Part shown: positions 5,572-62,555 of the stretch, piece by piece
Numbering within the stretch: position 1 is the stretch's first letter
How the letters are laid out: every line of letters starts with the position of its first letter
IMG/VR virus record: IMGVR_UViG_3300028394_002328
Coordinates: 186,001 to 250,000 of that record
DNA length: 64,000 nucleotides
Source: a virus
Strand: one strand, 5' to 3'
Notes under the pieces: generated by a model
The model's input: the letters and a program-made list of their open reading frames with translations, nothing else
Database searches by the model: none
Told to the model about the DNA's origin: nothing
Made by a program: the position numbers and the translations under genes

Positions 5572-6564
5572 ATGGACATTAAAACACTAGAATCATTTAA
5601 GTTATCGGATGCAGTAACATTCCATAACCAATTAAATCCTAAATTATTTGTAGGTCAAAAATTACTACCACAGGTAAAAAAGCAATTATTATTAATCGCA
5701 AAGGATTTCACTGATAATTTAGGTATACAAAACTTAAACATTAAAGATATTACTGTATCAGGATCCAACGCAGCATATAGTTATACACCACATAGTGATT
5801 TAGATTTACATATTATAGTAGATATGAGTAATATGAACAATGATGATGTATACCGTGAGTTGTTTAATGCCAAGAAAACTATTTACAATGATTCACATAA
5901 CATTACTGTACATGGTATTCCTGTAGAGTTATATGTACAAGATGAAGCCGAACCTGTAAAAAGTTTAGGTGAGTATAGTTTATTACAAGATAAATGGTTA
6001 AGATATCCCACTAAGCGCAGAGCAAACTTAGACCAAAACGCAACTAAAGCCAAATTTGACAAATTAGAAAAATTAATTCATTTAGCATTAAGATCAAAAA
6101 ACTTAAAAAAAATATTAGAAGTATTAAAGACTATCAAGCGATATAGACAAGCAGGGTTAGAGAAAGGTGGTGAATTTGGTCCTGAGAATTTAGCGTTTAA
6201 AGCATTGCGTAGTCAGGGGCTAATTACTAAACTATACGCATTAAGGGATCGGTTACATAGTGAAAAGTTAACGATTGAAACTATGTATCAGGATATAGAT
6301 GAAGATTCTCCAATGCAATTTGCTGCTGAAAAGACACCACCAATAAATCCATATGGTGGACTAAAAGATAGACAGTATCGCGGGGGAATATCAGAAGCAA
6401 GTGGGTATATTCCAAGTGAAAAAGAGAAAAATGATCCTCGGTGGAAAACCGGATTAACGGTGGATGTGAAACCTAATTCTATTAAAAAGAATGCCAAAGC
6501 ATTTGGGTTTAATACTAGTAGAGCGGGTATTCCACCTACATTAAAACCTTCAGGTGAAATATGA
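5572..6564 (+). CDS. Pol beta-type nucleotidyltransferase, candidate packaged protein
   Basis: 330 residues. The core holds SGSNAAYSYTPHSDLDLHI (about 63-81), the GS...DxD signature of the DNA polymerase beta nucleotidyltransferase superfamily (GrpB, MNT and OAS-like enzymes), with a further acidic strand at VELYVQDE. A Lys-rich helical domain follows. The C-terminus is separate: an ISEASGYIP junction leads into a segment with DPRW, LTVDVKP and NAKAFGF. ISE followed by A resembles a (L/I)xE prohead-protease site. The N-terminus MDIKTLESF is a weak match to the capsid-targeting pattern. Substrate unknown. Confidence 0.75.
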   Translation: MDIKTLESFKLSDAVTFHNQLNPKLFVGQKLLPQVKKQLLLIAKDFTDNLGIQNLNIKDITVSGSNAAYSYTPHSDLDLHIIVDMSNMNNDDVYRELFNAKKTIYNDSHNITVHGIPVELYVQDEAEPVKSLGEYSLLQDKWLRYPTKRRANLDQNATKAKFDKLEKLIHLALRSKNLKKILEVLKTIKRYRQAGLEKGGEFGPENLAFKALRSQGLITKLYALRDRLHSEKLTIETMYQDIDEDSPMQFAAEKTPPINPYGGLKDRQYRGGISEASGYIPSEKEKNDPRWKTGLTVDVKPNSIKKNAKAFGFNTSRAGIPPTLKPSGEI

Positions 6565-6770
6565 CAGTAACATTCTCAGGTGGAGTTAGAATAGCAGGTG
6601 GAACCACATTCTCTCCTCCCGTATCTTCATTGCCAATTAAAAGTGTTATCTTTTCGGATATGGAAGTAATCTCAACATCGTTATTAATGCTAAATACAAG
6701 ATTAACAACTACATTGAGTATTACACCGGCAAAAAGTTATGCTCAATCAATATTATTCGGGAGCGATTAA
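6561..6770 (+). CDS. Small hypothetical virion protein, 69 aa
   Basis: ATGA overlap with the preceding gene. The protein is Thr/Ser-rich and hydrophobic, starting MTVTFSGGVRIAGG, an opening resembling those of neighbouring adhesin genes. No known domain. Probably a small tail or adhesin-associated protein by position. Confidence 0.6.
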   Translation: MTVTFSGGVRIAGGTTFSPPVSSLPIKSVIFSDMEVISTSLLMLNTRLTTTLSITPAKSYAQSILFGSD

Positions 6771-7142
6771 ATGGCCAATCCAAATATTCTAGCGGCAACA
6801 ACTATAACAGGGAATACCACCTATTTGATTCCCGCTAATACAAGTGTCAATACATGGACCGCATTGACACCATCAGCAAATACTGTACATAAAATTGAAA
6901 ATATAACTGTTTCAAATGTTACTGGTAATGCAGTACCAATAACTCTTTCAATTAATAGTGCTATTAGTGGTGGTGGTACAGCGTATAGAATAGCATATCA
7001 AATTAGTGTACCATCAAATGCGTCATTGATTCTAACAGATAAAACTACATCATTTTATGTAACAGAAACTCAGAGTGTGGTAGCCACAGTAGGAACAGCC
7101 AGCGCACTGGAATTAGTAGCAAGTTACGAAGCTATAACCTAA
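6771..7142 (+). CDS. Putative tail/receptor-binding beta protein, 123 aa
   Basis: Composition (Thr, Asn, Ser, Ala, Val) and repeated beta strands such as VHKIENITVSNVTGNAVPI suggest a single beta-sandwich. It is the first of a co-directional series of adhesin-like genes that runs to 16575. No cysteine and no catalytic motif. Confidence 0.6.
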   Translation: MANPNILAATTITGNTTYLIPANTSVNTWTALTPSANTVHKIENITVSNVTGNAVPITLSINSAISGGGTAYRIAYQISVPSNASLILTDKTTSFYVTETQSVVATVGTASALELVASYEAIT

Positions 7143-7149
7143 TCTAACA

Positions 7150-8013
7150 ATGTCACAGCGTTATACTGGCGGAATACTTTCAGCAGCATTAACTGGTTTG
7201 AATTCGCCAGTTACCACTGTTGAGTATTTGGTTGTCGCTGGTGGTGGCGGGGGTGGACGTGAAACTAATACTTCGGGTGTCGGTGGCGGTGGTGGTGCGG
7301 GTGGTTTACTAACTGCAACAGGGTTTTCTATAACAGTTGGAACTTCTTACACCGTTACGATTGGTGCTGGCGGTGCAGGGCTAAATACTTCGACAGGTGC
7401 AGTTGGAAACAACGGCTCTAATTCTGTTTTTGGTTCTATTACCGCAATTGCTGGTGGTGGCGGTGGAGGAACGACTTTACAAGCGGGTAATACTGGCGGT
7501 TCAGGTGGTGGTGGATCAATTTTTGGCGGTGGAGGTGCGGCTGGAACGGCTGGACAAGGTAATGCTGGCGGAACACACAACACAACTTATAACTCTGCTG
7601 GTGGTGGTGGTGGCGCAGGTTCAGTAGGCGGTAATGCTGGCGCTTATGGTGGTGGCTCTGGTGGGACAGGATTAAGTTCATCCATATCTGGCACACAAGT
7701 TCAGTACGCTGGCGGCGGCGGCGGCGCTACTACTTTAACAAACGCTTCTTTGGGTGGTGGTGGCGGGGGTGGTAATGGTGCGCTCTACTCAGCATCATCG
7801 TTCGGTGGTGGTGGTTTAGCCAATACAGGTGGTGGTGGCGGTGGGGGTTCAAATGGCCCTGCACCATCAGGCTCAGGAGGCTCTGGCATAGTCATCATCC
7901 GTTACCCATCATATCTAGCCTCGGCAACATCAACGACTGGAAGCCCACAAACATACATAGATGGCAGTTGGCGAGTGTATGTATGGGTAAGTAGTGGTAC
8001 AATAACTTTTTAA
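7150..8013 (+). CDS. Glycine-rich tail adhesin
   Basis: 287 residues. After a short N-terminus it carries one glycine-rich module opening with VEYLVVAGGGGGG and closing with GSGIVIIRYP, then a short beta tail ending SSGTITF. Such modules are known from phage receptor-binding adhesins, where polyglycine helices pack in a bundle and exposed loops bind the host. The closing motif, the VYVWVSSGTITF end and several DNA stretches recur in the neighbouring genes, which would favour recombination. Confidence 0.75.
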   Translation: MSQRYTGGILSAALTGLNSPVTTVEYLVVAGGGGGGRETNTSGVGGGGGAGGLLTATGFSITVGTSYTVTIGAGGAGLNTSTGAVGNNGSNSVFGSITAIAGGGGGGTTLQAGNTGGSGGGGSIFGGGGAAGTAGQGNAGGTHNTTYNSAGGGGGAGSVGGNAGAYGGGSGGTGLSSSISGTQVQYAGGGGGATTLTNASLGGGGGGGNGALYSASSFGGGGLANTGGGGGGGSNGPAPSGSGGSGIVIIRYPSYLASATSTTGSPQTYIDGSWRVYVWVSSGTITF

Positions 8014-8023
8014 GAATATAACA

Positions 8024-10084
8024 ATGGCACAAGGATTATTCACTCTCAGACAGCAAGTACAGGGCATAGTTCAAAAGGCTTGGATTGCGCCCGCAGGCAC
8101 TTCTGCTGGTGTGTTCAATGGTACTAGCCAGTATTTGACTGTTCCTTATAGTTCAGCGTTTAACTTTGGGACTGGTGATTTTACTATTGAGGGCTGGATT
8201 AACCTAAGTTCTTTAAGTGTAAATTACTATGTTCTTGCTGGAACTTGGACTACTGGAACTTCAGACGAGTGGCTAATACAAATTCAAAACAATAATACTA
8301 TTAGATTTTTAACAACCGCTGGAACAAGTTTTTATTCGGCTACTATAACAACTGGAGTGTGGTATCATATTGCAGGTGTTAGAAGCGGGTCAACAATAAC
8401 ACTGTATGTGAATGGTGCAAGCGTTGGCAGTTATACTAATGCAAATAGTATAGGATCGGTTAGCAAGACTGTTTACATTGGTGCACAAGAAACAGCAATT
8501 TGGTATGTGAATGGTTACATTAGTAACTTCCGTATCGTAAAAGGTACCGCACTTTATACGTCTAATTTTGCAATTCCATCAGCCCCACTGAGAAATATAA
8601 CAGGCACTTCGTTACTAACTCTACAAAACGCTACAATTGTTGATAATAGTAGTAACGCATCCACAATTACAAACGTTGGGTCTGCGACCACTTCAACTAT
8701 ATCGCCAACGGCAATCCCAGTTAATGGACTCTCGCCCCCAGCAGTAGACTACCTTGTAGTTGCTGGTGGTGGAGGTGCGTCACAAGGTGGCGGTGGTGCA
8801 GGAGGATTACTTCAAGGATCTATACCAGTTACGACTGGTTCTGCTCTCACAGTAACAGTTGGTGGTGGTGGCGGTGCTTATACACAAGGACAAAATTCAG
8901 TTTTTTCAAGCATCGTAGCCATTGGCGGCGGGGCAGCGGCTAGTGGTACAGGTGGCTCTGGAGGTGGCGGGAATAATTCAACAGGACAACAGGGTACGTT
9001 CGGTCAAGGCAATACTGGTGGAGCAGGTAGCGCAACAGCAAGTCCGTATGCTGGTGGGGGTGGAGGAGGTGCTGGAACAGTTGGATTAAACGCAATTTCA
9101 ACAGTCGCGGGAAATGGTGGTGCAGGAATTGCGTCTGCTATTTCTGGAACTATTACAACTTATGCTGGTGGAGGTGGAGGAGGTGGGCCGACTAATGGTA
9201 CAGGTGGTGTAGGTGGAGGTGGCAATGGTGATGCAGATGGTACAGTAAACAGAGGAGGAGGTGGCGGCGGCGGATACGCAGGAGGTCCAAAATCAGGTGG
9301 CTCCGGTATTGTCATCCTAAGTTACCCTGATATATACGCTGGAGCAGCCGCAACTACTGGTAGCCCAACAGTCAGCACCAGCGGGTCGGGGAGTTTATTG
9401 CCGGGAAGCACATCAAGTTGGATCTACTACGCGGCTCAATCCGGGTTTGCTTTTGGCACTGGTGATTTTACGATTGAGTTTTGGACTAATTTTTATAGTA
9501 CGACCAGCGGCGCTAGTGGAACGAGTTATCTTTTAGATTTCCGTGGCGCTAGTAATCCGGCTAATTCTTCACTTGGTATTTTTCAAAACAGCGGTGGACT
9601 GCAATTATTTACGCAATCAGGACTTAATCCTAATTACGGAACGCCATCAATTAACACTTGGTTAAACATAGCGGTATCTAGGGTTAGCGGAACATTGTAT
9701 TGGTTTGTAAACGGAAGTCTTGTTAGTTCCGGAGCAGACACCACTAATTACACCGTTGGCTCAACTGGCCCGTCTTTTATGGGGTCGAGTTATTATAACA
9801 ACTACGGCTTGCAAGGTTACATGAGTAATATTCGTGTAATAAAAGGCACTGGATTATACACCTCTAATTATACTGCAACCACAACGCCTTATACTGCTGT
9901 TACAAATACGCAATTGCTTTTGAATACGGTTTCCGGCGGTTATTTAGCAGATGGGTCTACAAACTCTTACGCCGCATCAGTAGCAGGAACTGTGGCATGG
10001 AATCAACTCTCACCATTCGCAACTGGTTTAGGATACAAGAACCGTGTGTACACATACACGGGTAGCGGTTCAATAACCTTCTAA
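8024..10084 (+). CDS. Tail adhesin with LamG, glycine-rich and LamG domains
   Basis: 686 residues. A LamG/concanavalin-like domain (about 25-225) shows FNGTSQYLTV, GTGDFTIEGW, WYHIAGVRSG and ISNFRIVKGTALY. A glycine-rich module follows (about 240-440), opening VDYLVVAGGGG and closing GSGIVILSYP. A second LamG domain (about 470-650) has GTGDFTIEFW and MSNIRVIKGTGLY. The C-terminus YTGSGSITF is shared with sister genes. LamG domains usually bind glycans, so surface polysaccharide binding is inferred. Confidence 0.78.
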   Translation: MAQGLFTLRQQVQGIVQKAWIAPAGTSAGVFNGTSQYLTVPYSSAFNFGTGDFTIEGWINLSSLSVNYYVLAGTWTTGTSDEWLIQIQNNNTIRFLTTAGTSFYSATITTGVWYHIAGVRSGSTITLYVNGASVGSYTNANSIGSVSKTVYIGAQETAIWYVNGYISNFRIVKGTALYTSNFAIPSAPLRNITGTSLLTLQNATIVDNSSNASTITNVGSATTSTISPTAIPVNGLSPPAVDYLVVAGGGGASQGGGGAGGLLQGSIPVTTGSALTVTVGGGGGAYTQGQNSVFSSIVAIGGGAAASGTGGSGGGGNNSTGQQGTFGQGNTGGAGSATASPYAGGGGGGAGTVGLNAISTVAGNGGAGIASAISGTITTYAGGGGGGGPTNGTGGVGGGGNGDADGTVNRGGGGGGGYAGGPKSGGSGIVILSYPDIYAGAAATTGSPTVSTSGSGSLLPGSTSSWIYYAAQSGFAFGTGDFTIEFWTNFYSTTSGASGTSYLLDFRGASNPANSSLGIFQNSGGLQLFTQSGLNPNYGTPSINTWLNIAVSRVSGTLYWFVNGSLVSSGADTTNYTVGSTGPSFMGSSYYNNYGLQGYMSNIRVIKGTGLYTSNYTATTTPYTAVTNTQLLLNTVSGGYLADGSTNSYAASVAGTVAWNQLSPFATGLGYKNRVYTYTGSGSITF

Positions 10085-10094
10085 GGATAATATT

Positions 10095-11015
10095 ATGAGT
10101 CAAACTTTATTAGGAGGTTTTCTAAGCGCAACATTTAATCCCATGACGGATCAAAAGACTAGCACGGTGGAATACCTTGTTGTTGCTGGTGGCGGTGGGG
10201 CACAAACTGGTGGTGGAGGTGCTGGTGGATTATTAACTGCGGCTGGTTTTGCTGTTGCGGCAGGTTCTGCGTTAACTATTACTGTTGGCAGTGGTGGACC
10301 GTCAGCGACAAATGGGAGCAATTCGGTATTTAGTTCAATTACTGCAATTGGCGGTGGTGCTGGTGGTGCTCAAGAGTCTAATGGAAGTTCTGGCGGTTCT
10401 GGAGGCGGTGGTGGGCAATGGTATAGTGTTGCCGGGCCTTATACTGGAGGTGCTGGAACATCAGGACAAGGATTTGCTGGTGGGACAGGCAATCCAGCAG
10501 CATACAATCCTAATACTCAAGCCTTTGGTGGTGGCGGGGGAGGTGGTGCTGGTTCTGTTGGGGGAAGTATTGTTGCTGGTGTTTATTGCAAAGGTAATGG
10601 CGGTGCTGGAATATGTTCATCTATAACAGGTACTTCTATATTCTACGCAGGTGGTGGCGGGGGTAGATCGTATATTGGTAATGTTGGTGATCCTTGGGGC
10701 GGTGGTAATGGTGGTGCAGGAGGCGGTGGCGGTTCTAGCACAAATGGCGCAGGACTTGGTGGTATTACAAGATCAACCAACAATGGGCAAGATAGCGTAG
10801 CTAGTGGCAGAGGTGGTAATGGAGGGGCAAACTCAGGCGGCGGAGGTGGAGGGGCAAACTCAGGAACTAACGGGTCTGGCGGTTCCGGCATAGTCATCAT
10901 TCGTTATCCAAGAAATCTAGCACCACCTGTAAGCACAACAGGCAATCCACAAATTTTATACAACAATGGATATCAGATATATATTTGGACCAGTAGTGGT
11001 TCAATAACTTTCTAA
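10095..11015 (+). CDS. Glycine-rich tail adhesin
   Basis: 306 residues with a single glycine-rich module from VEYLVVAGGGG (near 25) to GSGIVIIRYP (near 263), then the beta end IYIWTSSGSITF. It is closely related to the gene at 7150 in layout. Differences lie mainly in the loop inserts between glycine runs, for example around QWYSVAGPYTGG. Probably a variant receptor-binding module of the virion. Confidence 0.75.
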   Translation: MSQTLLGGFLSATFNPMTDQKTSTVEYLVVAGGGGAQTGGGGAGGLLTAAGFAVAAGSALTITVGSGGPSATNGSNSVFSSITAIGGGAGGAQESNGSSGGSGGGGGQWYSVAGPYTGGAGTSGQGFAGGTGNPAAYNPNTQAFGGGGGGGAGSVGGSIVAGVYCKGNGGAGICSSITGTSIFYAGGGGGRSYIGNVGDPWGGGNGGAGGGGGSSTNGAGLGGITRSTNNGQDSVASGRGGNGGANSGGGGGGANSGTNGSGGSGIVIIRYPRNLAPPVSTTGNPQILYNNGYQIYIWTSSGSITF

Positions 11016-11032
11016 AATAAGAGGAAAATAAA

Positions 11033-11389
11033 ATGGCACATTTTGCAAAAGTAGAAAACGGCATAGTCACTCAAGTGATTGTGATTGAGCGTGATGTTCT
11101 TGAATTAGGACATTGGGGTGATCCTAGTAGTTGGGTTCAAACCAGTTATAACACACAAGGTGGAGTACATACACAAGGTGGCACACCATTGCGTAAGAAT
11201 TACGCAGGCATCGGGTACACTTATGATAGTGAACGTGATGCTTTTATTCCACCTAAACCATATGCTAGTTGGGTATTAGATGAAGAAACATGTTTGTGGA
11301 ATCCACCTACACCTATGCCATCAGATGGTAAGATGTATACATGGGATGAAGAAACAACAAGTTGGACTGAAGTCGTAATACCAGCATAA
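11033..11389 (+). CDS. Small tail-associated protein, 118 aa
   Basis: It opens MAHFAKVENGIVTQVIVIE and is rich in Trp and Pro in its second half (SWVLDEETCLW, YTWDEETTSW), where two similar W-x-x-D/E-E-T units occur in tandem. I have seen this pattern in small tail-fibre-associated proteins of T4-like marine and freshwater phages, but no function is established. Located between adhesin genes with an AGAGG ribosome site. Confidence 0.6.
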   Translation: MAHFAKVENGIVTQVIVIERDVLELGHWGDPSSWVQTSYNTQGGVHTQGGTPLRKNYAGIGYTYDSERDAFIPPKPYASWVLDEETCLWNPPTPMPSDGKMYTWDEETTSWTEVVIPA

Positions 11390-11400
11390 GGATAATAGAG

Positions 11401-13116
11401 ATGCCAGCATACAGTGGAATGTGGACGCTGAGCCAAGTTGCTCAAGCAATTAGAAATAGTGATTGGACAGGTGTCCCTCCTACTGTAGTAGAGTATTTGA
11501 TTGTTGCTGGCGGTGGTGGTGCGGGAAGTCAATTAGCTGGCGGCGGTGGCGCAGGTGGATTGCTTGCTGGCTATGCAGGCATAACTTTGGGTACTTCATA
11601 CTTTGTGACCGTAGGTGCTGGTGGTACTGGTACTTCTGGGCAATCTAGTACAGGCACAAATGGAGAAAATTCTGTTTTTGACTCTACAACTTCTGGTGCT
11701 TTTACAGGGCGAATTGTTGCAACGGGTGGCGGAGTTGGTGCATCTTTAGTCGCTGTTGGCGGTATAGCACCGGGTGGAAATGGCGCATCGGGTGGTTCTG
11801 GTGGCGGTGGCGCTACGCAGTATGTTACTGGTTTGGGCGCTTCTGGCATCTCTGGACAAGGAAATGCTGGTGCAAATGGAAGTGCTTATGCTGGTGCTGG
11901 CGGTGGCGGTGGCGGTGCAGGAACCAATGGTTTAGTAGCAAATACAACTACAGGTGGCAATGGCGGTGCAGGAATAGCGTCTGCCATATCTGGAACTGTT
12001 ACTACTTATGCTGGCGGTGGTGGCGGCGGCGCTAACGCTACTGGGGGAGCAGGTGGCGTAGGAGGCGGTGGTACGGGCGGCGGGTCATCTGCCGCAGTTT
12101 ATGGAACTGCAAACACAGGCGGTGGTGCTGGTGGTGGTGCGGGGAGTGACGGTCGAGGCGGTAATGGCGGTTCAGGCATTGTAGTCATACGCTATTCAGG
12201 AGTTGTTCAATACTTTACTGGTGGAACGGTTACTTGCACAGGTGGCTATGTTATTCATACATTCACTTCTTCTGGTACACTAGCGCCAACAACTCCCGCA
12301 TACTTAGTAAACTTACCACCTAATACAGTAATTTTCTACAGTTCTGGAATATGGGTAGCACCAGCAGGTTCAACCTCAGTTGAATACTTGGTTGTAGCTG
12401 GAGGTGGAGGTGGTGGGTCTGGTGGAACAGGATCAGGTGGTGGTGGCGCAGGTGGATATCGTACCGCAACAGGACTTTCTGTTACTGCCGGTACTTCTTA
12501 TACTGTTACTGTTGGTGCTGGCGGAACAGGTGGATATGGAGCAACTACATCTCAAGCCGCAGGGGTCAGCGGAAATGATTCAATTTTTAGTTCTATAACA
12601 TCAACAGGTGGAGGTGGCGGTGGATCAGAAATATCTTCCCCAAGCATAAATTACGCTGGAAAGTCTGGTGGTTCTGGTGGTGGTCCAATTACTTCTGGAG
12701 CGGCTGGAGCAGGAAATACACCGTCAACAACACCATCTCAAGGAAACAATAGCGGAACTGCTAGTTCATCTGCCCCAAATTACGGAGGTGGTGGAGGCGG
12801 CGGTGCGGGTTCTGTTGGTGGTAATGGGTCCGAAACTGTAGGTGGTGCAGGTGGATCTGGCACAGCATCATCTTTATCAGGTACTTCAGTAACATATGCT
12901 GGTGGAGGCGGCGGCGGAACATATAACGGTGGTACAGGCGGATCGGGTGGATCAGGTGGAGGTGGTGCTGGTTCTGCTAGTGGATTAACAACTGGTAGTA
13001 ATGGTACTGCTAATTTAGGTGGGGGAGGAGGTGCCGGCGCTTATACACCAACCGGTACATATAGATCAAACGGTGGCAACGGTGGCAGCGGCATCGTAAT
13101 CATCAAGTGGAGTTAA
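11401..13116 (+). CDS. Tail adhesin with two glycine-rich modules
   Basis: 571 residues. Module 1 runs from VEYLIVAGGGGAG to GSGIVVIRYSG, module 2 from VEYLVVAGGGGGG (near 325) to GSGIVIIKWS at the C-terminus. They are joined by a beta segment containing VIHTFTSSGTL and SSGIWVAPAGST. The IWVAPAGS phrase resembles the WIAPAGT phrase at the start of the gene at 8024. The tandem modules look like a within-gene duplication that has since diverged. Confidence 0.75.
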   Translation: MPAYSGMWTLSQVAQAIRNSDWTGVPPTVVEYLIVAGGGGAGSQLAGGGGAGGLLAGYAGITLGTSYFVTVGAGGTGTSGQSSTGTNGENSVFDSTTSGAFTGRIVATGGGVGASLVAVGGIAPGGNGASGGSGGGGATQYVTGLGASGISGQGNAGANGSAYAGAGGGGGGAGTNGLVANTTTGGNGGAGIASAISGTVTTYAGGGGGGANATGGAGGVGGGGTGGGSSAAVYGTANTGGGAGGGAGSDGRGGNGGSGIVVIRYSGVVQYFTGGTVTCTGGYVIHTFTSSGTLAPTTPAYLVNLPPNTVIFYSSGIWVAPAGSTSVEYLVVAGGGGGGSGGTGSGGGGAGGYRTATGLSVTAGTSYTVTVGAGGTGGYGATTSQAAGVSGNDSIFSSITSTGGGGGGSEISSPSINYAGKSGGSGGGPITSGAAGAGNTPSTTPSQGNNSGTASSSAPNYGGGGGGGAGSVGGNGSETVGGAGGSGTASSLSGTSVTYAGGGGGGTYNGGTGGSGGSGGGGAGSASGLTTGSNGTANLGGGGGAGAYTPTGTYRSNGGNGGSGIVIIKWS

Positions 13117-16651: not shown

Positions 16652-17770
16652 ATGAAAATTAATCAAATTATCTTAGAAACGTCTGCTGGTGCTACTGGTT
16701 CAGGATCGGTAGCCACTGTTGCTAAACCTATGGGAGAAACACAAAGTAGATACCCAGAGGTAAAAGGTCTAAAGCCAATAGATAAACTTAACGGTAAGAA
16801 AAAAGGTCCATATAGCAACTCTCTTTCAGAAAGTAAAGTAGCAGAAGCAAAACTGGAAGAAGATGATTTAATTATAGTTCCTGGACAAAGCAAAAGATTC
16901 AAGCCAGGACTAATTTCAAAAGCGGAAGATAGAACTGACCATGAAGTTGAAATGGCATTAAGTGACTTATATCAAGCATATAAGAATGCTAAAAAAACTT
17001 ATATGCTTCTAAAAAATAGAACCGAAGAAGAAGGTCTTGAAGGGTGGGTACAAGAAAAGATTATCAAGGCTAATGACTATCTAACTGCTATTCGTGAATA
17101 TTACGAACATCAGGCTATACAAAATGAAATGACTGGTGGAGTTATTGGTAATGGTATGGCAGGTGAAAGTGCTACTAAAAAAGTAAATCCATATGCTGTT
17201 GGTATGTCACAAGCAATGAAATCAACAGGTGACAAACCACCTTTGAAAAAGAGTACGATAGTCAAAGGTCATCATATAGCAAAAAAGATTAAACAACAAG
17301 ATATTGAAGAAGGTTGGAAAAGCAAACTAGCAGGCGCCGCTCTTGCTGGTGCTGCTGCTTTTGGCGGGGGCGGTGCTCATGCAGGTGGAATGTCATTGCC
17401 TCCCGCAGGATTGACACCAGCCCAAGCTCAAGAATTTACAAACGCCCAATTTGCAGGACAACAAGCAATAAATCAACATGCTGCTCAACAAGCAGGAAAA
17501 ATTGACTATCGCAAAGATGGTCCAATTACAAAAAGTTCATTAGGACATAAACTAGAATATGGTATTCCTGTAAATGCCAAAGGTGATTTTATCAATCCTA
17601 ATAGATTACCAAACATTCATGAATTGCCTAGGGACGAAATAGAAGCTATGGCTGAAGCATATCAAGCTTGGCTTAAAGACTATTTGAGTCGTTGGCCCAA
17701 TGCTAAACAACAGGCAGATGGATCAATGCAAGGTCTCAAACCAGGTCTTGCTCCGATGTACCCTAAATAA
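16652..17770 (+). CDS. Candidate packaged protein with capsid-targeting-like N-terminus
   Basis: 372 residues, no known enzyme domain. The N-terminus MKINQIILETSAG has the form of a T4 capsid-targeting sequence ending ILE, with a predicted cut before T. A second similar site is SKVAEAKLEE near 70. A helical middle (KNAKKTYMLLKNR) and an Ala/Gly-rich segment near 230 (SKLAGAALAGAAAFGGGG), which could be membrane-active or a flexible linker, precede a Gln/Ala-rich stretch. The C-terminal 90 residues look like a separate small domain. Confidence 0.65.
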   Translation: MKINQIILETSAGATGSGSVATVAKPMGETQSRYPEVKGLKPIDKLNGKKKGPYSNSLSESKVAEAKLEEDDLIIVPGQSKRFKPGLISKAEDRTDHEVEMALSDLYQAYKNAKKTYMLLKNRTEEEGLEGWVQEKIIKANDYLTAIREYYEHQAIQNEMTGGVIGNGMAGESATKKVNPYAVGMSQAMKSTGDKPPLKKSTIVKGHHIAKKIKQQDIEEGWKSKLAGAALAGAAAFGGGGAHAGGMSLPPAGLTPAQAQEFTNAQFAGQQAINQHAAQQAGKIDYRKDGPITKSSLGHKLEYGIPVNAKGDFINPNRLPNIHELPRDEIEAMAEAYQAWLKDYLSRWPNAKQQADGSMQGLKPGLAPMYPK

Positions 17771-17779: not shown

Positions 17780-20290
17780 ATGGCCAATACTTTAAGAAAA
17801 TTTCAATACATATTAGAAGGTATTGATCAAGAACATTTAACTGATATTTTAGTTAAACGGTTAAAATCACGCTATCCTGATATCAGTACAAAATACGAAG
17901 AAGATGTATTACATGATGCGGCTATGGATGTTGCATCTTTTCACGCTGGTGCAGAAGAATTAGGCACTAGTGATATTGGGGCAATGATTAGAGAAGTCAT
18001 TAAAAATTTAGAAAGATTTAATGAGCGTGGTCAGGGTGAAAAAATGATTCCAAACTCAGTTAGAGGTTGGAGAATGAATGAAGAAACAGAACCTGAGCGT
18101 GTAGTTAGACAATTAAAAGCAGCAAAAAAGTATTTAGGTCAAGATCCTGAACCAAAAAAAGAACCTGAAGAGAAAGAAACAAACGAATCATACTGGGGCG
18201 GACCTAGTCCAGCACAATTGCGTTTTAATCGTGCTTTAAAAAAACAACAAAATAGTCCTGAAAATAAAGCAGATAGAGAAAAGTTTCAAAAAGAACTAGA
18301 CCGTATTATGCCTCCGCCGAAAAAAGAGCCTGAAGACAAAGAGGTGACTGAAGGTGCTGCGATATCAACTAGTGGAAAAACTGACTCAGGTTACACTTGG
18401 AAGTTTGAAGCAGGGCGTGAAGTGCCTTTTAAAACAGATATAGATGTAAACACATTTATTAGAGTAACTGATCCTGCTGGTAAGACTGTTGCTGGTGTTT
18501 GGGCAGATGTAGCGGGTGATTCACTAGTAGTTGAATATTCTCAAGTGTTTGATGAAGAGTTAAGAGGCAAAGGTCTTTATACAGATTTGTTAAAAAGTTT
18601 AAGTAAACAGTATGATGTAACATCAGATACAGATACGAATAATGCCGCTGTTAGCATTTATAAACGGTTAGGTGCAGATTATGATGCTCGCCAAGAAAAG
18701 CATACATTGCGTAAACAAGGTGTAGCGGAAGGCTCAGACCAAAATTATTTGTCTCAGATACCCAACTTGACTTGGAAACCAGTAAGCCGTAGTGTATGGA
18801 ATACTATACAAGACGAAGGACTCGATGAAGAACAAGATGCACCTAACCATACTGATTGGGTGATGGCCAATTTGACGATTAGTCCAAAAGATTCACAGGC
18901 ACTGCAAGCATTTGACAATGACGCTATTGAAGATTTCAACAGATTTGACATACATCTAAAATCCCGTTACCCTGGACTCACTGACTTAATTGATTATGAT
19001 AGAGGAACTGTAACTATTGTAAAGACAGTAACAGAGCAAGGTGTGGCGGAAGGCCGAAAAAAGAAAAACAAAAAAACTTCAAGATCCTTAGGCAGATATT
19101 TCTTCCCGGGCTATGGCTATTATGGTAGTGGAGAATCTGGTGAAGGCGGTGGTGATGGCGGCGGAGGAGAAAGTATGGCGGAAGGCACTAATGTTGACAT
19201 TGGTGGTATACAATTAAATGTTGTGGCTGATGGAGCTGAGGTAATCATTCGTCCATCTGTAGATGGATATCAAGCTGGTTATGCAGTATTTGACCGTGAT
19301 GGTAGTACTCTAGTACCTGCTGATCTTGCTATAGATGAAGAGTTTCGTGGTCAAGGCATCGCTAAAACCATTTACGATTATGTAAAGAGTCTTGGATTTA
19401 CTATTCGTCGCAGTAGTGATCAAACCAAAGCTGGTAAACACTTTTGGGATAAAAATCGCGGAGAAGATAGTCAAGTATGGGAGCAAACAATGACACTAGA
19501 AGAACTTGATGAGGCATGTTGGAAAGGTTATCATAAAGAAGGCATGAAGACCATGTTTGGCAAACGCTATCCTAACTGTGTGAAGAACACTAATGAAGAC
19601 CACCAACAATGTCCTGAATGCGGTGGTCCAATGTTTAGTGAAGAAATGATTAACGAAAAGAAAGATGCTTGCTACTATAAAGTTAAGAGCCGTTATAAAG
19701 TATGGCCCAGTGCGTATGCCAGTGGTGCATTAGTAAAGTGTCGCAAAAAAGGTGCTAGCAACTGGGGCAATAGCACAAAAAATGAAAGTTCTATATTAGA
19801 AGGTCTAGAACAAACTGATGAAAACTTACATAAATGGTTCAAAGAGAAGTGGGTAAGATTTGGTCCTGATGGCAAGATACGCGGTGATTGTGCTAGAGGA
19901 GATGATAGTGAGGGTAAACCAAAATGTTTACCACAAAGTAAAGCACAGAATTTAGGTAAGAAGGGTCGTGCTAGTGCGGCTGCTAGAAAGCGTAGAGAAG
20001 ATCCAAACCCCGAGCGTAGTGGTAAAGCAATCAATGTTGCTACTAAAAAGAAAACTTCCGAGAGTTCAATTCTTCAAGGAATAAGTGAAACAAAAGGCTT
20101 ACCAATGCCAGGTTCGTATGAACAAGAAAATAAACCTTTTCTTAGAAAAGGTGAACAGAAACTTATGGCTCTTACTACTGAACAAGAAGAATTAGATGAG
20201 AAGTGGAGTAATAAGTATAAGAGAAGTATTAATTGTAACAATCCAAAAGGATTTTCACAAAAGGCTCATTGCCAAGGAAAAAAGAAATGA
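17780..20290 (+). CDS. Multi-domain polyprotein with two GNAT domains and repeated QGVAE sites
   Basis: 836 residues built like beads on a string. The N-terminus has YILEG. About 185-310 is a GNAT acetyltransferase-like domain (EELRGKGLYTDLLKSL). RKQGVAEG near 311 is followed by an unknown domain, then EQGVAEG near 420 and a glycine-rich linker. A second GNAT-like domain lies at about 470-570 (EEFRGQGIAKTIYDYVK). After that come a CWKGYHKEGMKTMFGKRYPNC unit, a C-x2-C pair (CPECGG), a segment with SRYKVWPSAYASG, a basic segment with GRASAAARKRRED and a C-terminal Lys/Cys-rich unit. Further (I/V)xE sites occur at SSILEG and SMAEG. I infer cleavage at these sites into small packaged proteins. 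Confidence 0.7.
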   Translation: MANTLRKFQYILEGIDQEHLTDILVKRLKSRYPDISTKYEEDVLHDAAMDVASFHAGAEELGTSDIGAMIREVIKNLERFNERGQGEKMIPNSVRGWRMNEETEPERVVRQLKAAKKYLGQDPEPKKEPEEKETNESYWGGPSPAQLRFNRALKKQQNSPENKADREKFQKELDRIMPPPKKEPEDKEVTEGAAISTSGKTDSGYTWKFEAGREVPFKTDIDVNTFIRVTDPAGKTVAGVWADVAGDSLVVEYSQVFDEELRGKGLYTDLLKSLSKQYDVTSDTDTNNAAVSIYKRLGADYDARQEKHTLRKQGVAEGSDQNYLSQIPNLTWKPVSRSVWNTIQDEGLDEEQDAPNHTDWVMANLTISPKDSQALQAFDNDAIEDFNRFDIHLKSRYPGLTDLIDYDRGTVTIVKTVTEQGVAEGRKKKNKKTSRSLGRYFFPGYGYYGSGESGEGGGDGGGGESMAEGTNVDIGGIQLNVVADGAEVIIRPSVDGYQAGYAVFDRDGSTLVPADLAIDEEFRGQGIAKTIYDYVKSLGFTIRRSSDQTKAGKHFWDKNRGEDSQVWEQTMTLEELDEACWKGYHKEGMKTMFGKRYPNCVKNTNEDHQQCPECGGPMFSEEMINEKKDACYYKVKSRYKVWPSAYASGALVKCRKKGASNWGNSTKNESSILEGLEQTDENLHKWFKEKWVRFGPDGKIRGDCARGDDSEGKPKCLPQSKAQNLGKKGRASAAARKRREDPNPERSGKAINVATKKKTSESSILQGISETKGLPMPGSYEQENKPFLRKGEQKLMALTTEQEELDEKWSNKYKRSINCNNPKGFSQKAHCQGKKK

Positions 20291-20333: not shown

Positions 20334-20774
20334 ATGTTAGTAGATAATTTAAAAGTACTGTTAGCTAGTACACAAGCGTTTGCTATCAAGTCACAAAACT
20401 TTCATTGGAATGTTGAAGGCAGTAATTTCCCACAATATCACGAATTCTTTAATACATTATATGAAGATGTAAATGCTACCATAGATCCAATTGCCGAGTA
20501 TATTAGAATCCTAGGTCATTACACACCAGGCAGTTTATCTAGATATGCTGAATTAAGTATTATTCAAGACCAAACAAAGATTCCTCGTGCTCAATTAATG
20601 TTTGCTGAATTATTACAAGATTGTCACACATTAAGCCAATTAGTTGTTAATATGTTTGATGAAGCAACAAATGAGCGTCAACAAGGCATTGCTAATTACA
20701 TGGCTGAACTACAAGACTTGTATGGTAAAAAAGCTTGGTTTATTAATTCCACACTTAAAACTGAGCGTGAGTAA
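20334..20774 (+). CDS. dps: Dps-family ferritin-like protein
   Basis: 146 residues from ATG 20334; a TTG at 20307 would add nine. The motif KSQNFHWNVEGSNFPQYHEF followed by LYEDVNATIDPIAE matches the Dps ferroxidase region (His in FHWN, acidic residues in the D/E-x-x-A stretch). Dps proteins form dodecamers that oxidise and store iron and shield DNA from oxidative damage. AAAAGGA lies 11 bases upstream of the ATG, which favours it. The stop overlaps the next start (TAATG). It lies within a run of candidate packaged proteins but lacks the leader peptide. Confidence 0.88.
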   Translation: MLVDNLKVLLASTQAFAIKSQNFHWNVEGSNFPQYHEFFNTLYEDVNATIDPIAEYIRILGHYTPGSLSRYAELSIIQDQTKIPRAQLMFAELLQDCHTLSQLVVNMFDEATNERQQGIANYMAELQDLYGKKAWFINSTLKTERE

Positions 20775-21547
20775 TGAGACTTAATGAATTTGTGGTTGAC
20801 GAAGAAATAGTACAAGATGCTATTGTTAGAATACCACAGACTGAAATATTCAGTCAAGGTGATGATTATATCGGTCAATTAGAACGAGCGGCTAGCACAC
20901 AAATAAGTGCGATGTTTAAAAAGTTAAAGCCTGTACCTGATGATCAGGATTTAAGATATGGTATTATTCCAAAAGATGACGTTGGTCAATATCATGTTAT
21001 TATAGTTAATAACACTGATAGAATAATTGGTGACTTAGTATTATCTCCAGTAAAAGATTTTCCATTACAACCTGCATATACTGTAGAGTTCGTTACTGTC
21101 GCAGAAGAATATCGTGGCATGGGTGTCGGTAATCTATTATATAAGATAGCACTTAGAGATCAGGGAATACAATTAATAGCAGGCGAAAGCCAAACAGTAG
21201 GTGGTCGTAGAAATTGGATCAGTTTAAGTAAAACACCCGGTGTTATGATATCAGGGTGGGGTTGGGTCAATGTAAGTGAACAGGCTAATAGTAATCCTGA
21301 ACTAGTTAAAATTCAAAAGAAATTTGAAAAGTCAATGACAAAAGCAGGAGCAAAAAGTTTAGGTGTAAATAAAGGCCCTTCGAATACACTGTCTCGTGCG
21401 ATTAATAAACATTGGTATTTGTTCCCAGTACATGCTGGTGAAAAAGAATTTAAAGCAATCAATAACTCAATAAAGATTTATTATAATGATGTGTACAATC
21501 TTCCATTTTTATACAAGGTTGGATTGTTAGCAAATTGGGGTAATTAA
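20774..21547 (+). CDS. GNAT-like acetyltransferase, candidate packaged protein
   Basis: 257 residues. The GNAT motif A is visible as VTVAEEYRGMGVGNLLYKIAL (about 97-117; E-Y-R-G-x-G-V-G binds acetyl-CoA pyrophosphate). The N-terminus MRLNEFVVDEE resembles the capsid-targeting peptides of its neighbours (MRxxEFxxxE). The C-terminal 90 residues are a Lys-rich helical extension. The acceptor is unknown. Confidence 0.75.
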   Translation: MRLNEFVVDEEIVQDAIVRIPQTEIFSQGDDYIGQLERAASTQISAMFKKLKPVPDDQDLRYGIIPKDDVGQYHVIIVNNTDRIIGDLVLSPVKDFPLQPAYTVEFVTVAEEYRGMGVGNLLYKIALRDQGIQLIAGESQTVGGRRNWISLSKTPGVMISGWGWVNVSEQANSNPELVKIQKKFEKSMTKAGAKSLGVNKGPSNTLSRAINKHWYLFPVHAGEKEFKAINNSIKIYYNDVYNLPFLYKVGLLANWGN

Positions 21548-23305: not shown

Positions 23306-23743
23306 ATGAAAAAAATTATAGCAATCGCATTATTGGTAATATCAACTACGGTTGACGCACAAAAAACACCACAAGGTGTTATATACGATTTCCCTATTAC
23401 TAGAGTATTAGATGGTGATACAGTAGCATTTCAGGCTACATTTTTACCACCTCCACTTAAACAAGAACTTAGTATAAGAGTATTTGGTGTAGATACTCCT
23501 GAAAAAGGATTTAGAGCCAAATGTCCACAAGAAGATCAAAGAGGACAGGCTGCTTCCGCATTTACAAAAGATTTAGTATCTCATGCACAAAAACGCCAAG
23601 TTGTTATCATGGACTGGGATAAATTTGGTGGGCGTGTATTAGGCGATGTAATCCTTGATGGTAAGAGTTTACGTGAACAACTTATTACAAATAATTATGC
23701 TAGAGCATACTTTGGCGAAGCAAAACAATCTTGGTGTAATTAA
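23306..23743 (+). CDS. Secreted thermonuclease-like (SNase) protein
   Basis: 145 residues. A signal peptide (MKKIIAIALLVISTTVDA) is followed by the staphylococcal nuclease fold: strand ITRVLDGDTVAF, RVFGVDTPEKG with the catalytic Arg and Asp, and KFGGRVLGDV with the second Arg region. It cleaves DNA or RNA with Ca2+ and should be exported to the periplasm. AAAGGAG lies 8 bases from the start. A secreted nuclease could degrade competing DNA at the cell surface or support lysis or scavenging; both are inferences. Confidence 0.82.
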   Translation: MKKIIAIALLVISTTVDAQKTPQGVIYDFPITRVLDGDTVAFQATFLPPPLKQELSIRVFGVDTPEKGFRAKCPQEDQRGQAASAFTKDLVSHAQKRQVVIMDWDKFGGRVLGDVILDGKSLREQLITNNYARAYFGEAKQSWCN

Positions 23744-23748: not shown

Positions 23749-24324
23749 ATGATAACTGAATCATTCGTTGGTGAAACTGCGGTTATGGAGTTATATAAAA
23801 AACTCCCTGGCCTATCCAAACACAACTATAATACCATTGATAAATTAATGCGGATAATTGCACAAAAGCATGAACTTAGTAGTGATGCATTGAATGATTT
23901 ATTTGTGAAAAAATTTAATCGTAGTCCTGATAGTTGGGTTAAAGGAAAATTAGACGAATCTGATGTTGAATGTGATTTAGAACAAGAAGTAGAAAAGTTT
24001 GTAGATTGGGCTGCTAAAAAGTTGAATTTACAAACCACTCCCAAAATTGAACTAAGCATGGATACTGAAGAAGCACAAACTAATCATCATACTGGTAGCC
24101 ATACTGATGGTGATAACAGTGTTTGGGTATATGCTAAAAACCGTAATTTGGTTGACATACTAAGAACGGTATTTCACGAATTGGTTCATGTCAGACAAGG
24201 TGAATTGAATATGATTAAACCGGGATCTAGTTACCCTGGCAGCCCAATAGAAGTCATGGCAGATTGTTTAGCTGGCAAGTATATTAAGATATACGGTGAA
24301 AAGAATCACCATATTTTCCAATGA
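23749..24324 (+). CDS. Zinc metallopeptidase-like protein, candidate packaged protein
   Basis: 191 residues. FHELVHVRQGELN (near 141-153) contains the HExxH zinc-protease motif, and VMADCLAGKY about 30 residues later could supply the third ligand region. The leader MITESFVGE offers ITE and VGE sites. The N-terminal 100 residues are a Lys/Asp-rich helical domain. If packaged it would act immediately on entry. Start ATG 23749 lacks a strong ribosome site and probably depends on the upstream gene. Confidence 0.7.
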   Translation: MITESFVGETAVMELYKKLPGLSKHNYNTIDKLMRIIAQKHELSSDALNDLFVKKFNRSPDSWVKGKLDESDVECDLEQEVEKFVDWAAKKLNLQTTPKIELSMDTEEAQTNHHTGSHTDGDNSVWVYAKNRNLVDILRTVFHELVHVRQGELNMIKPGSSYPGSPIEVMADCLAGKYIKIYGEKNHHIFQ

Positions 24325-53784: not shown

Positions 53785-53999
53785 GTAAAGAAGCCATGCG
53801 TGAGGCTCTAGAAGCATTAGAGTGGATGCGTGTGGCTTTCAAACAAAACAGTCAGGGCAGACAAGTTGCTGATTCGGCAATAGAAGCATTGAAAATGGCA
53901 CTTGGGCCTGAGGTTTTGGAATTTGACATACTTGACAAGTACGACCAAGTAATTTACAATACAGGAAACATTAAAGGAAATTTTACAAATGAAAATTAG
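53781..53999 (+). CDS. Small helical hypothetical protein, 72 aa
   Basis: EAMREALEALEWMRVAFKQNSQGRQVADSAIEALKMAL is an amphipathic helical pair. Coupled by ATGA to the ligase gene and overlapping the next gene by 11 bases. Function unknown. Confidence 0.65.
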   Translation: MSKEAMREALEALEWMRVAFKQNSQGRQVADSAIEALKMALGPEVLEFDILDKYDQVIYNTGNIKGNFTNEN

Positions 54000-54384
54000 C
54001 GAATTATCAGAATCACTCGACCTTATTCAATTAGCAACCATTAGTGATAAAGCACTTGATGATGTTTATCATTATGGACGAAGTACTCCTGGCAAGAACT
54101 TTGGATGGCTCGCTAATTTAGAATCAGCAAAAGCGGCACTGAAACTTATCCAACAAGGTGCTACCGATGTTGATGTTATTGCCGATGCTATTCACGATGG
54201 TTGGAATATTACTGCCATGGCAGATTACAACGGTGAGTTGGATCTAGACACTCCTACACCCGATGAAAAGAAATTGAAACGGTATAAGTTGGCACAACAG
54301 AGTTATGCACAACTTCCTGAAGAAGAGAAAGAAAAAGACCGAGTAGTTGCTCGGGCATTGTTAAAAGCATTAAAAGGAATTTAA
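53989..54384 (+). CDS. Candidate packaged protein, 131 aa
   Basis: The leader MKISELSESLDL contains LSE followed by S, matching the capsid-targeting pattern. The rest is helical, with AADYNGELDL-like acidic turns (DTPTPDEKK) and a Lys/Glu-rich end. No enzymatic motif. It is the only member of this set within the small-gene region. Confidence 0.55.
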   Translation: MKISELSESLDLIQLATISDKALDDVYHYGRSTPGKNFGWLANLESAKAALKLIQQGATDVDVIADAIHDGWNITAMADYNGELDLDTPTPDEKKLKRYKLAQQSYAQLPEEEKEKDRVVARALLKALKGI

Positions 54385-55924: not shown

Positions 55925-55930
55925 CTTACT

Positions 55931-57565: not shown

Positions 57566-58765
57566 ATGACCTTAGAAAATAAAATCACCCACTGCACTTT
57601 TTGTGGAAGCCACAAAGAAGTTGTAAAAAAGTTAATTGTCAGCGAATCGGTTGCAATTTGCAGTGATTGCATTGAACTATGTAATCAACTAATCAATGAT
57701 GATTCTTCAGTTGAATCTGAAAAAATAGAACATCAAACCTATGATGCTATTCAAATTAAAGAGTATTTGGATCAGCATATCATAGGACAAGCTGATGCTA
57801 AAATGATTCTCAGTGTTGCTATAGCAAATCACTTTAAACGAATTACACATCCTCCTGAAGATTTAGAAATCCAAAAGGGAAATGTGTTACTAATTGGTCC
57901 TACTGGATCAGGTAAAACGTTACTAGCAAAAACTGTAGCAAAGTTTTTGAATGTACCATTTGTAGTTGCTGATGCTACATCATTAACAGAAGCAGGTTAC
58001 GTTGGTGATGATGTTGAAAGTATGATTAGTATGTTAGTTAATTCAGCCGGCGGTGATGTTAAAAAAGCAGAACGCGGTATTGTATTCATTGACGAAATTG
58101 ATAAGATTGCCCGTAAAGGTGAATCTACTAGCATTACCCGTGATGTATCGGGGGAAGGTGTTCAACAAGCACTACTTAAATTAGTAGAGGGTACTATATG
58201 TCGTATTCCTGCAGGTGGTGGTAGAAAACATCCCGGTGGTGATATGTTAGAAGTTAATACTAAAAACATTTTATTCATTTCAGGTGGTGCATTTGTAGGC
58301 CTATATGATATTATTAAATCAAGGGTCAAGGGCACTAGAATTGGTTTCGGTGCTAATGTTATTGCCAACCATGAAGATATTGAACTAAATTTAGTTTCGC
58401 CCGATGATTTAACTAAGTTTGGAATGATTCCTGAGTTCATTGGTAGATTTACTACATCAGTTGTTCTAACTGATTTAGATAGGGATGAACTACTTAAGGT
58501 ATTAACAGAAATCAAAAATAACTATATAAACCAATACCAATATCTATTTTCACTAGATAATATTGATTTGAATTTTGATACCGAAGCATTAGAGCAAATA
58601 GTAGATAATTGCCTAGAACTTAAAACAGGTGCTCGTGGTCTACATACTGAAATTGAACGGTGCTTAATGCCACATATGTATAATGCTCGCAAATACCATG
58701 ATCATGGTATAACCGTGATAAATATTAGTCAGGACATGGTGATTAATCCACAACCATTAGTATGA
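57566..58765 (+). CDS. clpX: ATP-dependent Clp protease ATP-binding subunit ClpX
   Basis: 399 residues from ATG 57566; a TTG at 57533 in frame is less likely. An N-terminal zinc-binding domain (CTFCGS and CSDCIELC) precedes one AAA+ module: Walker A GPTGSGKT (near 110), Walker B GIVFIDEIDKI, pore-loop region GGRKHPGGD and sensor-2 KTGARGLHTEIE. RIGFGANV carries the IGF loop that docks on ClpP. The full domain set suggests it can pair with phage or host ClpP. Confidence 0.95.
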   Translation: MTLENKITHCTFCGSHKEVVKKLIVSESVAICSDCIELCNQLINDDSSVESEKIEHQTYDAIQIKEYLDQHIIGQADAKMILSVAIANHFKRITHPPEDLEIQKGNVLLIGPTGSGKTLLAKTVAKFLNVPFVVADATSLTEAGYVGDDVESMISMLVNSAGGDVKKAERGIVFIDEIDKIARKGESTSITRDVSGEGVQQALLKLVEGTICRIPAGGGRKHPGGDMLEVNTKNILFISGGAFVGLYDIIKSRVKGTRIGFGANVIANHEDIELNLVSPDDLTKFGMIPEFIGRFTTSVVLTDLDRDELLKVLTEIKNNYINQYQYLFSLDNIDLNFDTEALEQIVDNCLELKTGARGLHTEIERCLMPHMYNARKYHDHGITVINISQDMVINPQPLV

Positions 58766-59018: not shown

Positions 59019-59026
59019 GATAAATA
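59019..59026 (+). promoter_or_regulatory. T4-type late promoter GATAAATA
   Basis: GATAAATACT, 63 bases before the hsp20 ATG, immediately upstream of a hairpin. Confidence 0.5.
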
Positions 59027-59029
59027 CTG

Positions 59030-59057: not shown

Positions 59058-59089
59058 TCAGTCATCTTGCTTATTAAAGGAGAAAACAA

Positions 59090-59536: not shown

Positions 59537-59549
59537 TATAGTAGCGTAT

Positions 59550-59571
59550 GTGTGCAGCATCCGCTGCACAC
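59550..59571 (+). terminator. Stem-loop between hsp20 and clpS
   Basis: GTGTGCAGC, loop ATCC, GCTGCACAC form a perfect 9-base stem followed by ATTTTA. Weak T tract, so a partial terminator or processing site. Confidence 0.55.
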
Positions 59572-59590
59572 ATTTTATGAGAGAACTAAA

Positions 59591-60896: not shown

Positions 60897-60962
60897 ATAT
60901 CTCCTAAACAAGTATTTAACATAACCTCTACCAAATCTAATATTATTTAATTAGGTAAGAAG

Positions 60963-60970
60963 AATAAATA
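60963..60970 (+). promoter_or_regulatory. Possible late promoter AATAAATA
   Basis: AATAAATACT ends 7 bases before ATG 60978, the same spacing as at 5559 and 48998. Confidence 0.45.
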
Positions 60971-60977
60971 CTAAACT

Positions 60978-62555
60978 ATGCGTGATTTACTAAACCTCAT
61001 CCAAACCCTATCTGAAGCTAGCACTCTGAGTGCATCGGAGATTATAAATCGGACCGGTAGATTTGAAAAATTCATATCAATGATTGCTAATCAACAGCCG
61101 TTTTATACTATTGATCAAGAATCGGTGATTGCTGACCCTTCCGAAGCAGACCGTTTCCAACAATTATATGATAATGGCAAATTTTCAGGTACTCTTAAAA
61201 TTAAATTAGAAGATGGTAGGCAAATTCTATTAAGTCAATTGTTAAAAACCTCTGATTTAGGAGGACAGGCTAAAACAGGTGAAGAGGGTGAAGAAACTGG
61301 TAAAGAATCAGCTTTATTAAAACCTTCTCAGATTAAAATCACTGACAAAGACATTCCTGCTAGTCAATTAGGAGAAACAATTATTAATAACAGTGTGCTG
61401 CAATCTACTGATTATGGAAGATTAGTCATTGAAATGGCTGAAACTATTATGAATGGTGGGAACCCAGTTATCTCCAAAGATGTTCCTTCCAAGATTAAAG
61501 ATAGTATTGTTGACTACGCAGGTGAGTATTTAGGTGTGTTGGCACTAGTATCGGGTACTTCCCGTTTCCCTAGAAAGAAGGGTTTTACTGAATGGCTAGG
61601 AAGTGATGTATCTGAGTTAATTATTAATTTTCCAGGTAAAGCTAATACTAACATAGCCGATAGCTATGCCAGCATTTCTAACGATAAAACAAATCACAAA
61701 ATTAATATTTCAAGTAAAGGTCAAGGTGGCGGTGCTCCTCCAAGTGTAAGTGGATTAAAGGTACCTGATGAAATTAGAAATAATCCTGATTATCTTGGTG
61801 CAGTAGGTTTCATTGATTTATGTGATAATGGCACTAAAAAGGTTCCCGCTAAAATATCTTTACCATCACCTAGAACTATTAGCTCCGTCTTTGCTGCTAT
61901 GAATTTATTAAATGAAGTAGCACCCGAATCTATCCCGCAGAAATTTAAATCAGTGTTACCGTGGGATGTTAATAAAATTACAAAAGATGTAAAACAAAGC
62001 ATCGAAGATTTTAAAAAAAATGTGCAGCCATCTAGGCCTAATTCTTATCCAGGTAAGATGCCAGGCTATGATATATTTTTTAATGACATTAAATTTCAAA
62101 AACCAAGTAGCGACGGTGGAAAGTTAACTCATGCAGTTAAATTAGCAGTGATGAATGCAGTAAACGAAGGCCAAGCTATTCCTGAATTCCAAGATGTGGT
62201 ATTATCCATTTTAGATATGAACTTCATTCAGCAATACGCAGACTTTGATCCTAAGAGTAGAATAATGAGCTTTGCTACACAATGGCCTGCTAAACTTGAA
62301 GGAAAAATTACATTAGAATCTAAATCAGGAGGAACTGATCCAACTAAAGGTGGATTCAGTTTTAAATTAGCCAATACAGCACCTAAAACTGATTTGGAAG
62401 AGCCTGATGAACTAGGGGCAGGCGTCGAACCTGATGATGGTGTTATAGGTACGGTATCCGATTTGTCTACATCATCAATGGATATTGTTAATCCAAAAAG
62501 AAGAGAGCCAAAAGAACCTAAACCATCAGGAGATGTTGGGCGTAAAAAACGTTGA
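60978..62555 (+). CDS. Candidate packaged protein, 525 aa, possible nuclease-like core
   Basis: The leader MRDLLNLIQTLSEAS carries LSE followed by A. The middle (about 195-260) has SYASISNDKTNHKINISSKGQGGGAPPS, where D and S-S-K lie as in some PD-(D/E)xK restriction-like folds; tentative. The C-terminus (from about 465) is acidic, then Lys/Pro/Arg-rich, probably disordered. About 14 bases separate it from a late promoter, and the stop overlaps the clpP promoter. Confidence 0.55.
   Translation: MRDLLNLIQTLSEASTLSASEIINRTGRFEKFISMIANQQPFYTIDQESVIADPSEADRFQQLYDNGKFSGTLKIKLEDGRQILLSQLLKTSDLGGQAKTGEEGEETGKESALLKPSQIKITDKDIPASQLGETIINNSVLQSTDYGRLVIEMAETIMNGGNPVISKDVPSKIKDSIVDYAGEYLGVLALVSGTSRFPRKKGFTEWLGSDVSELIINFPGKANTNIADSYASISNDKTNHKINISSKGQGGGAPPSVSGLKVPDEIRNNPDYLGAVGFIDLCDNGTKKVPAKISLPSPRTISSVFAAMNLLNEVAPESIPQKFKSVLPWDVNKITKDVKQSIEDFKKNVQPSRPNSYPGKMPGYDIFFNDIKFQKPSSDGGKLTHAVKLAVMNAVNEGQAIPEFQDVVLSILDMNFIQQYADFDPKSRIMSFATQWPAKLEGKITLESKSGGTDPTKGGFSFKLANTAPKTDLEEPDELGAGVEPDDGVIGTVSDLSTSSMDIVNPKRREPKEPKPSGDVGRKKR

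Follow-up and report, generated by a model that had tools for sequence, protein, structure and literature searches.

A set of otherwise unrelated proteins in the genome of a jumbo phage begin with a short peptide that is likely to be a capsid targeting sequence of the T4 type, and the larger of these cargo proteins appear to be mosaic polyproteins whose internal sites are probably cut by the prohead protease. The DNA analysed, a stretch of 64,000 nucleotides (the window), corresponds to bases 186001–250000 of an uncultivated virus record totalling 335,035 bases. Its source is a 335-kb T4-like jumbo phage with its own gp21-type prohead protease, the record holding, on the minus strand, a T4-type head cluster of portal-like, gp68-like, gp21 protease, gp22-like scaffold and gp23 genes. 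By portal DNA and scaffold protein, the nearest named phages are the jumbo phages PA5oct, RaK2-like, XaC1 and Atu_ph07, with a scaffold identity of only about 33–37%; the GP88 protein, used as a query for isolate relatives, returned distant matches only, and close relatives are plentiful among public viral contigs. The window phage (G000) and four relatives (G001–G004) form the five-genome set used below, with gene starts from a simple in-house caller (332 genes in the window phage's genome).

In the mechanism we propose, the cargo proteins would be made late in infection and dock to the prohead scaffold through the N-terminal leader; the gp21-type protease would then cut after the leader Glu, and the trimmed enzymes would stay in the head and be delivered with the DNA. 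The modules of the mosaics are parted by (V/I/L/M)xE sites, mostly QGVAE↓G (arrows mark sites), which the same protease probably cuts, so that one leader could bring several effector domains. The near-fixed word behind this linker would also provide about 20 bp of shared DNA for in-frame module exchange. At the level of sequence, the leader, the protease, the linker, the shuffling of modules and the equivalence of linker and leader sites are established.

Leader peptides and their bearers

The earlier note on this DNA had assigned a leader of the form M-(R/K/N)-x-x-E-(F/L)-(I/L)-x-E to a group of proteins, named here by the lower coordinate of their genes. Every ORF it named is present where it had been placed, 38991 and 40349 being the low ends of minus-strand genes; the form itself holds exactly only in 21560 and 24321, the remaining starts being relaxed, weak or siteless. 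The cargo run opens with 16652–17770 (plus strand; leader MKINQIILE↓TSA at 16652–16678), which has a TATAAATA-like late promoter 32 nt upstream. Its protein carries, directly after IEE, a signal-peptide-like stretch, GWKSKLAGAALAGAAAFGGGGAHAGG (17312–17389, plus), a type of element that recurs in G002 proteins after VDE and VEE. The gene at 17780–20290 (plus; leader MANTLRKFQYILE↓GID) encodes a mosaic cargo protein of 836 aa with a GNAT domain, a DUF5872-like stretch and several small Cys/Lys-rich modules in common with cyanophages. Also on the plus strand are a GNAT protein (20774–21547), an Amidoligase_2 protein (21560–23290; leader MRALEFLNE, second site LDE↓IDMSP), a small protein (23749–24324) and a further GNAT protein (24321–24725; leader MRHFEFITE↓QKS). 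The small protein had been counted among the full leaders, but its start, MITESFVGE, is weak only. Two starts had been called weaker: that of 20774 (MRLNEFVVDE) is indeed weak, and that of the NTase-type protein at 5572–6564 (plus; GSNAAxxYTPxSDIDLH), MDIKTLESF, is without a cut site. The cargo run also includes, at 23306–23743, a leaderless homolog of staphylococcal nuclease that has an apparent Sec signal.

On the minus strand, a protein with a kinase-like C-terminal part (38991–40349; leader MRIKELLE↓SVQ) adjoins a GP88-domain protein (40349–41950; leader MNIKELFE↓GVE). The plus strand further holds a small protein at 53989–54384 (leader MKISELSE↓SLD), with a RyR-like match under the curated cut-off, and the protein at 60978–62555 (leader MRDLLNLIQTLSE↓AST), for which a fold search gave no usable match and whose residues 1–12 are folded without confidence in the predicted structure. 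Relaxed leaders ending in (L/I)xE or LE/FE are found in six window proteins (16652, 17780, 38991, 40349, 53989 and 60978). DUF, kinase and methyltransferase matches under curated cut-offs were not taken as identifications.

Leader genes continue beyond the window, at genome positions 74969, 75358, 130380, 255477, 258123, 275019 and 278981. As had been claimed for GNATs, amidoligase, kinase and GP88, the peptide heads unrelated proteins, to which HAD, NT5C phosphatase, superoxide dismutase and GH19 can be added. The Fe/Mn superoxide dismutase at genome 258123–258677 (L012:9123–9677) has an N-terminal extension, MRDIITLLEE, that is retained in a relative (G002 121601).

Of 1738 gene starts in the five genomes, 29 carry the strict motif M[RKN]xx[ED][FILVY][LIVF]xE, as does only 1 of the 8759 internal methionines (P about 5e-22). 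A relaxed pattern finds 18 genes in the window phage's genome alone, where shuffling predicts 4.9 (at most 14 in any of 2000 shuffles) and internal Mets predict 3.9. The leader is about 8–13 residues long and ends in an aliphatic-x-E site; its consensus is M-R-A-x-E-F-(I/L)-T-E, most often followed by A or S. Position 9 is Glu and position 7 is I, L or V in 13, 11 and 5 cases, respectively, the I/L share being the informative part because the pattern itself imposes the Glu and an aliphatic residue. In the window, the strict motif is absent from DNA polymerase B, the 5'-3' exonuclease, DNA ligase and ClpA/X/P, the ligase showing a loose KLNE at residue 11. The ClpA/B-like, ClpX-like and ClpP proteins are encoded at 87–2351, 57566–58765 and 62605–63195, and a run of tail-fibre-like proteins, with glycine-rich VEYLVVAGGGG stretches in common, at 7150–13116. 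Upstream of many genes in all five genomes, TATAAATA-like late promoters cluster in two fixed zones before the start codon (about −17 to −10 and −36 to −22), of which the near class would yield almost leaderless late mRNAs.

Prohead protease, linkers and module shuffling

The prohead protease anticipated by the earlier note is encoded in the genome (PF03420, E 6.7e-29): this S77 protease matches the T4 gp21 structure 5JBL (E 2.3e-14), and its gene is placed among the gp68-like, gp22-like and gp23 genes. T4 gp21 is described as cleaving after L/I-x-E, and for packaging the ten N-terminal residues of IPIII are enough (PMC9026906). In 19 relatives, the major capsid propeptide ends in LLAE, LLSE, LKE, LME or LAE before the mature part (read as LLAE↓S, LKE↓N, LME↓T and LAE↓A); judging from the sequence conservation of these ends, the capsid processing site of the clade is LxE, the same type of site that closes the leader.

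In the large cargo proteins, QGVAE↓G serves as the linker between modules, and the DNA behind it is a near-fixed word of ~20 nt, AGCAAGGTGTGGCGGAAGGC. Copies encoding QGVAE↓G lie at 18716–18732 (CAAGGTGTAGCGGAAGG) and 19037–19053 (CAAGGTGTGGCGGAAGG), both on the plus strand; a third (41406–41422, minus strand, 1 mismatch) reads QGVAE↓A and immediately precedes the GP88 module. Among word copies with up to 2 mismatches, 289 of 296 are read through in frame as QGVAEG, and most of the remaining seven end immediately behind the linker. When up to 3 mismatches are allowed, all 11 copies in the five genomes (11/11) fall in genes that start leader-like or with a peptide ending in IKE/INE, reversed controls giving 0; by regex, 28 of 88 linker proteins clearly have a leader, many others being near misses. 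The Ala codon of the linker is GCG in 17 of 18 copies, these having been found by protein search, versus 7% genome-wide (P 4.5e-19), and codon use in the linker is therefore constrained at the DNA level. A 17-mer of the word matches at least 120 viral stretches, while the 20-mer gave 3 matches in 257 Gb of bacterial genomes, about chance; the word is almost confined to phages. Sequences flanking its copies are unrelated, the invariance within the word in this comparison being by construction, since the loci were fetched with it. A general enrichment of GV[ATSN]E was considered and rejected, with a total over all proteins of 79 versus 82 expected; the motif is notable only by its concentration in leader-headed mosaics.

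Modules are shuffled between proteins. At least 19 module clusters occur with two or more different left neighbours, although these counts are rough because, under blind segmentation, multidomain segments chained into one large cluster. The amidoligase module of 21560 follows other leaders in relatives, or closes a fusion of ~1450 aa whose N-terminal module is a homolog of 5572 and which holds peptidase modules; the G001 fusion contains M48, and Pfam finds no peptidase domain in window 17780 or 40349. The module GINVRSDGNxDYASLIVDG follows NITE↓ in 38991, and QGVAE↓ or a leader in other proteins. Hundreds of cyanophage records contain modules of 17780. Small phages also have a match of this kind: Prochlorococcus P-SCSP1 records of about 37.8 kb match the C-terminal part of the G002 mosaic protein (DUF6321 area), and such modules are therefore not limited to T4-like phages.

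For the stretch after each QGVAE, homologs were sought elsewhere and the residues preceding the same boundary were read wherever these were not GVAE. Such a boundary has an [LIVMF]xE site ending no more than 4 residues away in 123 of 227 cases, compared with an average of 44 and a maximum of 62 for positions drawn at random from the same proteins; the replacements include leaders themselves (MRATEFITE↓DWNK, MNINDIITE↓SQQKCP). As far as homologous boundaries can tell, linker and leader end in the same kind of site, and it is chiefly on the strength of this equivalence that cutting of the linkers is expected, even with Val at P3. An alternative accepts T4-like head targeting but takes QGVAEG for a mere flexible linker spread by recombination, the mosaics staying whole as multidomain effectors. 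Val at P3 does fall outside the L/I-x-E rule of T4 gp21 (PMC9026906) and counts against cutting, and recombination alone could explain the conservation of the word in DNA; yet we consider this alternative improbable, given that unrelated aliphatic-x-E sites, leaders included, replace the linker far above chance, and that the Tat-type export signals located behind a site in two proteins would be useless if uncut.

The first of these two proteins, G004 103509–104144 (L167:3509–4144), begins with the leader MRATEFVTE, directly followed by MDRRGFLRG and then by a GH19 domain. When the whole protein is scored, MDRRGFLRG passes the Pfam cut-off for a Tat signal; we treat this placement as a lead because an internal ATG could also start the protein. 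In the second, G001 66378–70778, an internal Tat signal comes after IEE (L148 near 9700–9900). Read from after the site, both exceed the NCBIfam Tat cut-off; a third candidate, G001 56241, is below it. The signal-like stretches of the GWKSKLAGAALAGAAAFGGGGAHAGG and GWKSxLAGAALAGA type match neither Tat nor other signal models, and only two Tat-type cases are thus put forward. If cargo polyproteins are cut, cutting would bare these Tat signals (in the GH19 protein G004 103509 and in G001 66378) and could direct injected enzymes to the periplasm. It is conceivable, if still rather doubtful, that a widespread family of giant phages shares such cargo, that is, leader-borne polyproteins cut at their linkers into small effectors, exchanged through a 20-nt word and in some cases exposing a Tat signal.

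Leader proteins in virions of related phages

A published virion proteome with coordinates is available for S-CREM2 (PMC10665884 Table 3). By the values in that table, 5 of 52 mass-spec-positive genes have a strict-rule leader versus 0 of 139 undetected ones (p 0.0013, a value that is indicative because the rule was written after several of these sequences had been seen). The match in gp17 (MKQIIIHE), one of these five, could be due to chance; leaders are also carried by non-structural proteins of the virion, namely SAM hydrolase (MKDFDSFLE), kinase (VKRFDAFLTE), cytidylyltransferase (MKNFSSFLTE) and small gp13 (MKDLHSFLTE), and a Cas9-like virion protein has LRFASFMAE at residues 17–25. Two further proteins detected by mass spectrometry are related to window proteins: gp156 is a homolog of 5572 (37.5% over 208 aa) and gp160 has a module in common with the 17780 protein (about 53%). 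Similarly, the S-SM1 cytidylyltransferase, which starts MKKFSAFLNE, was detected in virions (PMC3037559). The S-CREM2 authors point out that detection in purified virions could include carry-over (PMC10665884). In CBB (RaK2-like), taken as a positive control, no leader was seen on the few mass-spec-positive proteins examined. By analogy, these tabulated virion data from relatives support the reading of the leader as a mark of head cargo. The original proposal of a T4-like capsid-targeting peptide thus draws support from the gp21-type protease, from the unrelated bearers and from what these virion tables report.

The leader might instead be a docking or regulatory peptide used in the infected cell, for example to bind a host protein or a phage compartment, and have no part in packaging. 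Nothing direct speaks for this, except that the bearers are enzymes and not structural parts; the over-representation of leader proteins in the S-CREM2 virion table, the one leader protein reported from S-SM1 virions and the capsid protease site at the end of the leader make it very improbable. Shared descent, through recent duplication of an N-terminal segment without retained function, could account for the ATG AGA GCN that opens several leaders, but is barely credible where leader codons differ synonymously and upstream DNA is unrelated, a combination that indicates selection on the leader peptide, and where the last leader Glu (E13) of the 60978 family is invariant in 12 homologs of 47–91% identity while the surrounding leader varies.

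Comparison with known systems

The interpretation of the leader as a T4-type targeting sequence invites comparison with the internal proteins and Alt of T-even phages, which likewise have an N-terminal leader of about ten residues, an (L/I)xE site, a gp21-type protease, unrelated mature parts and likely delivery with the DNA. In contrast, the cargo set here is larger and more enzymatic, and it has longer mosaics in which internal sites recur and a DNA linker is shared, features that PMC9026906 and PMC12373910 do not describe for T4. In phiKZ and SPN3US, many internal head proteins (ejection proteins) are also processed after Glu by a gp21 relative; their cut motif differs, with a P4 preference and Ser at P1', and their propeptides are mostly long, features that the leaders described here do not show. 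Closer in kind are the virion enzymes of cyanophages, including S-SM1 T4-GC190 and the SAM hydrolase, kinase, Cas9-like protein and cytidylyltransferase of S-CREM2, a phage with modules in common with 5572 and 17780. They have the same type of leader, which offers an explanation for the presence of enzymes in cyanophage virions; the portions of those reports considered here make no mention of it.

Little has been learned of what phages inject in addition to their DNA, and a readable leader and linker would allow head cargo to be predicted from sequence only, phage by phage. The linker further suggests how such an arsenal may be assembled, with cut sites doubling as recombination points. A literature search, with subscription papers and preprints outside its reach, found no description of polyprotein cargo with a DNA-level linker, and it is the polyprotein form and this linker that go beyond known internal proteins. 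For polyvalent proteins, which occur in phages and conjugative elements, an embedded peptidase has been proposed to bring about release (Iyer et al. 2017, PMC5512222). As here, these are predicted injected proteins that each unite several effector domains, with extensive mosaicism and GNAT, kinase and peptidase domains, the latter present in some relatives of the window phage (G001 fusion, M48). Unlike them, the proteins described here have a T4-type leader and prohead-protease-like sites, and the window mosaics are without a recognised peptidase domain. Overall, the system would combine head cargo of the T4 type with the concept of polyvalent proteins (PMC5512222).
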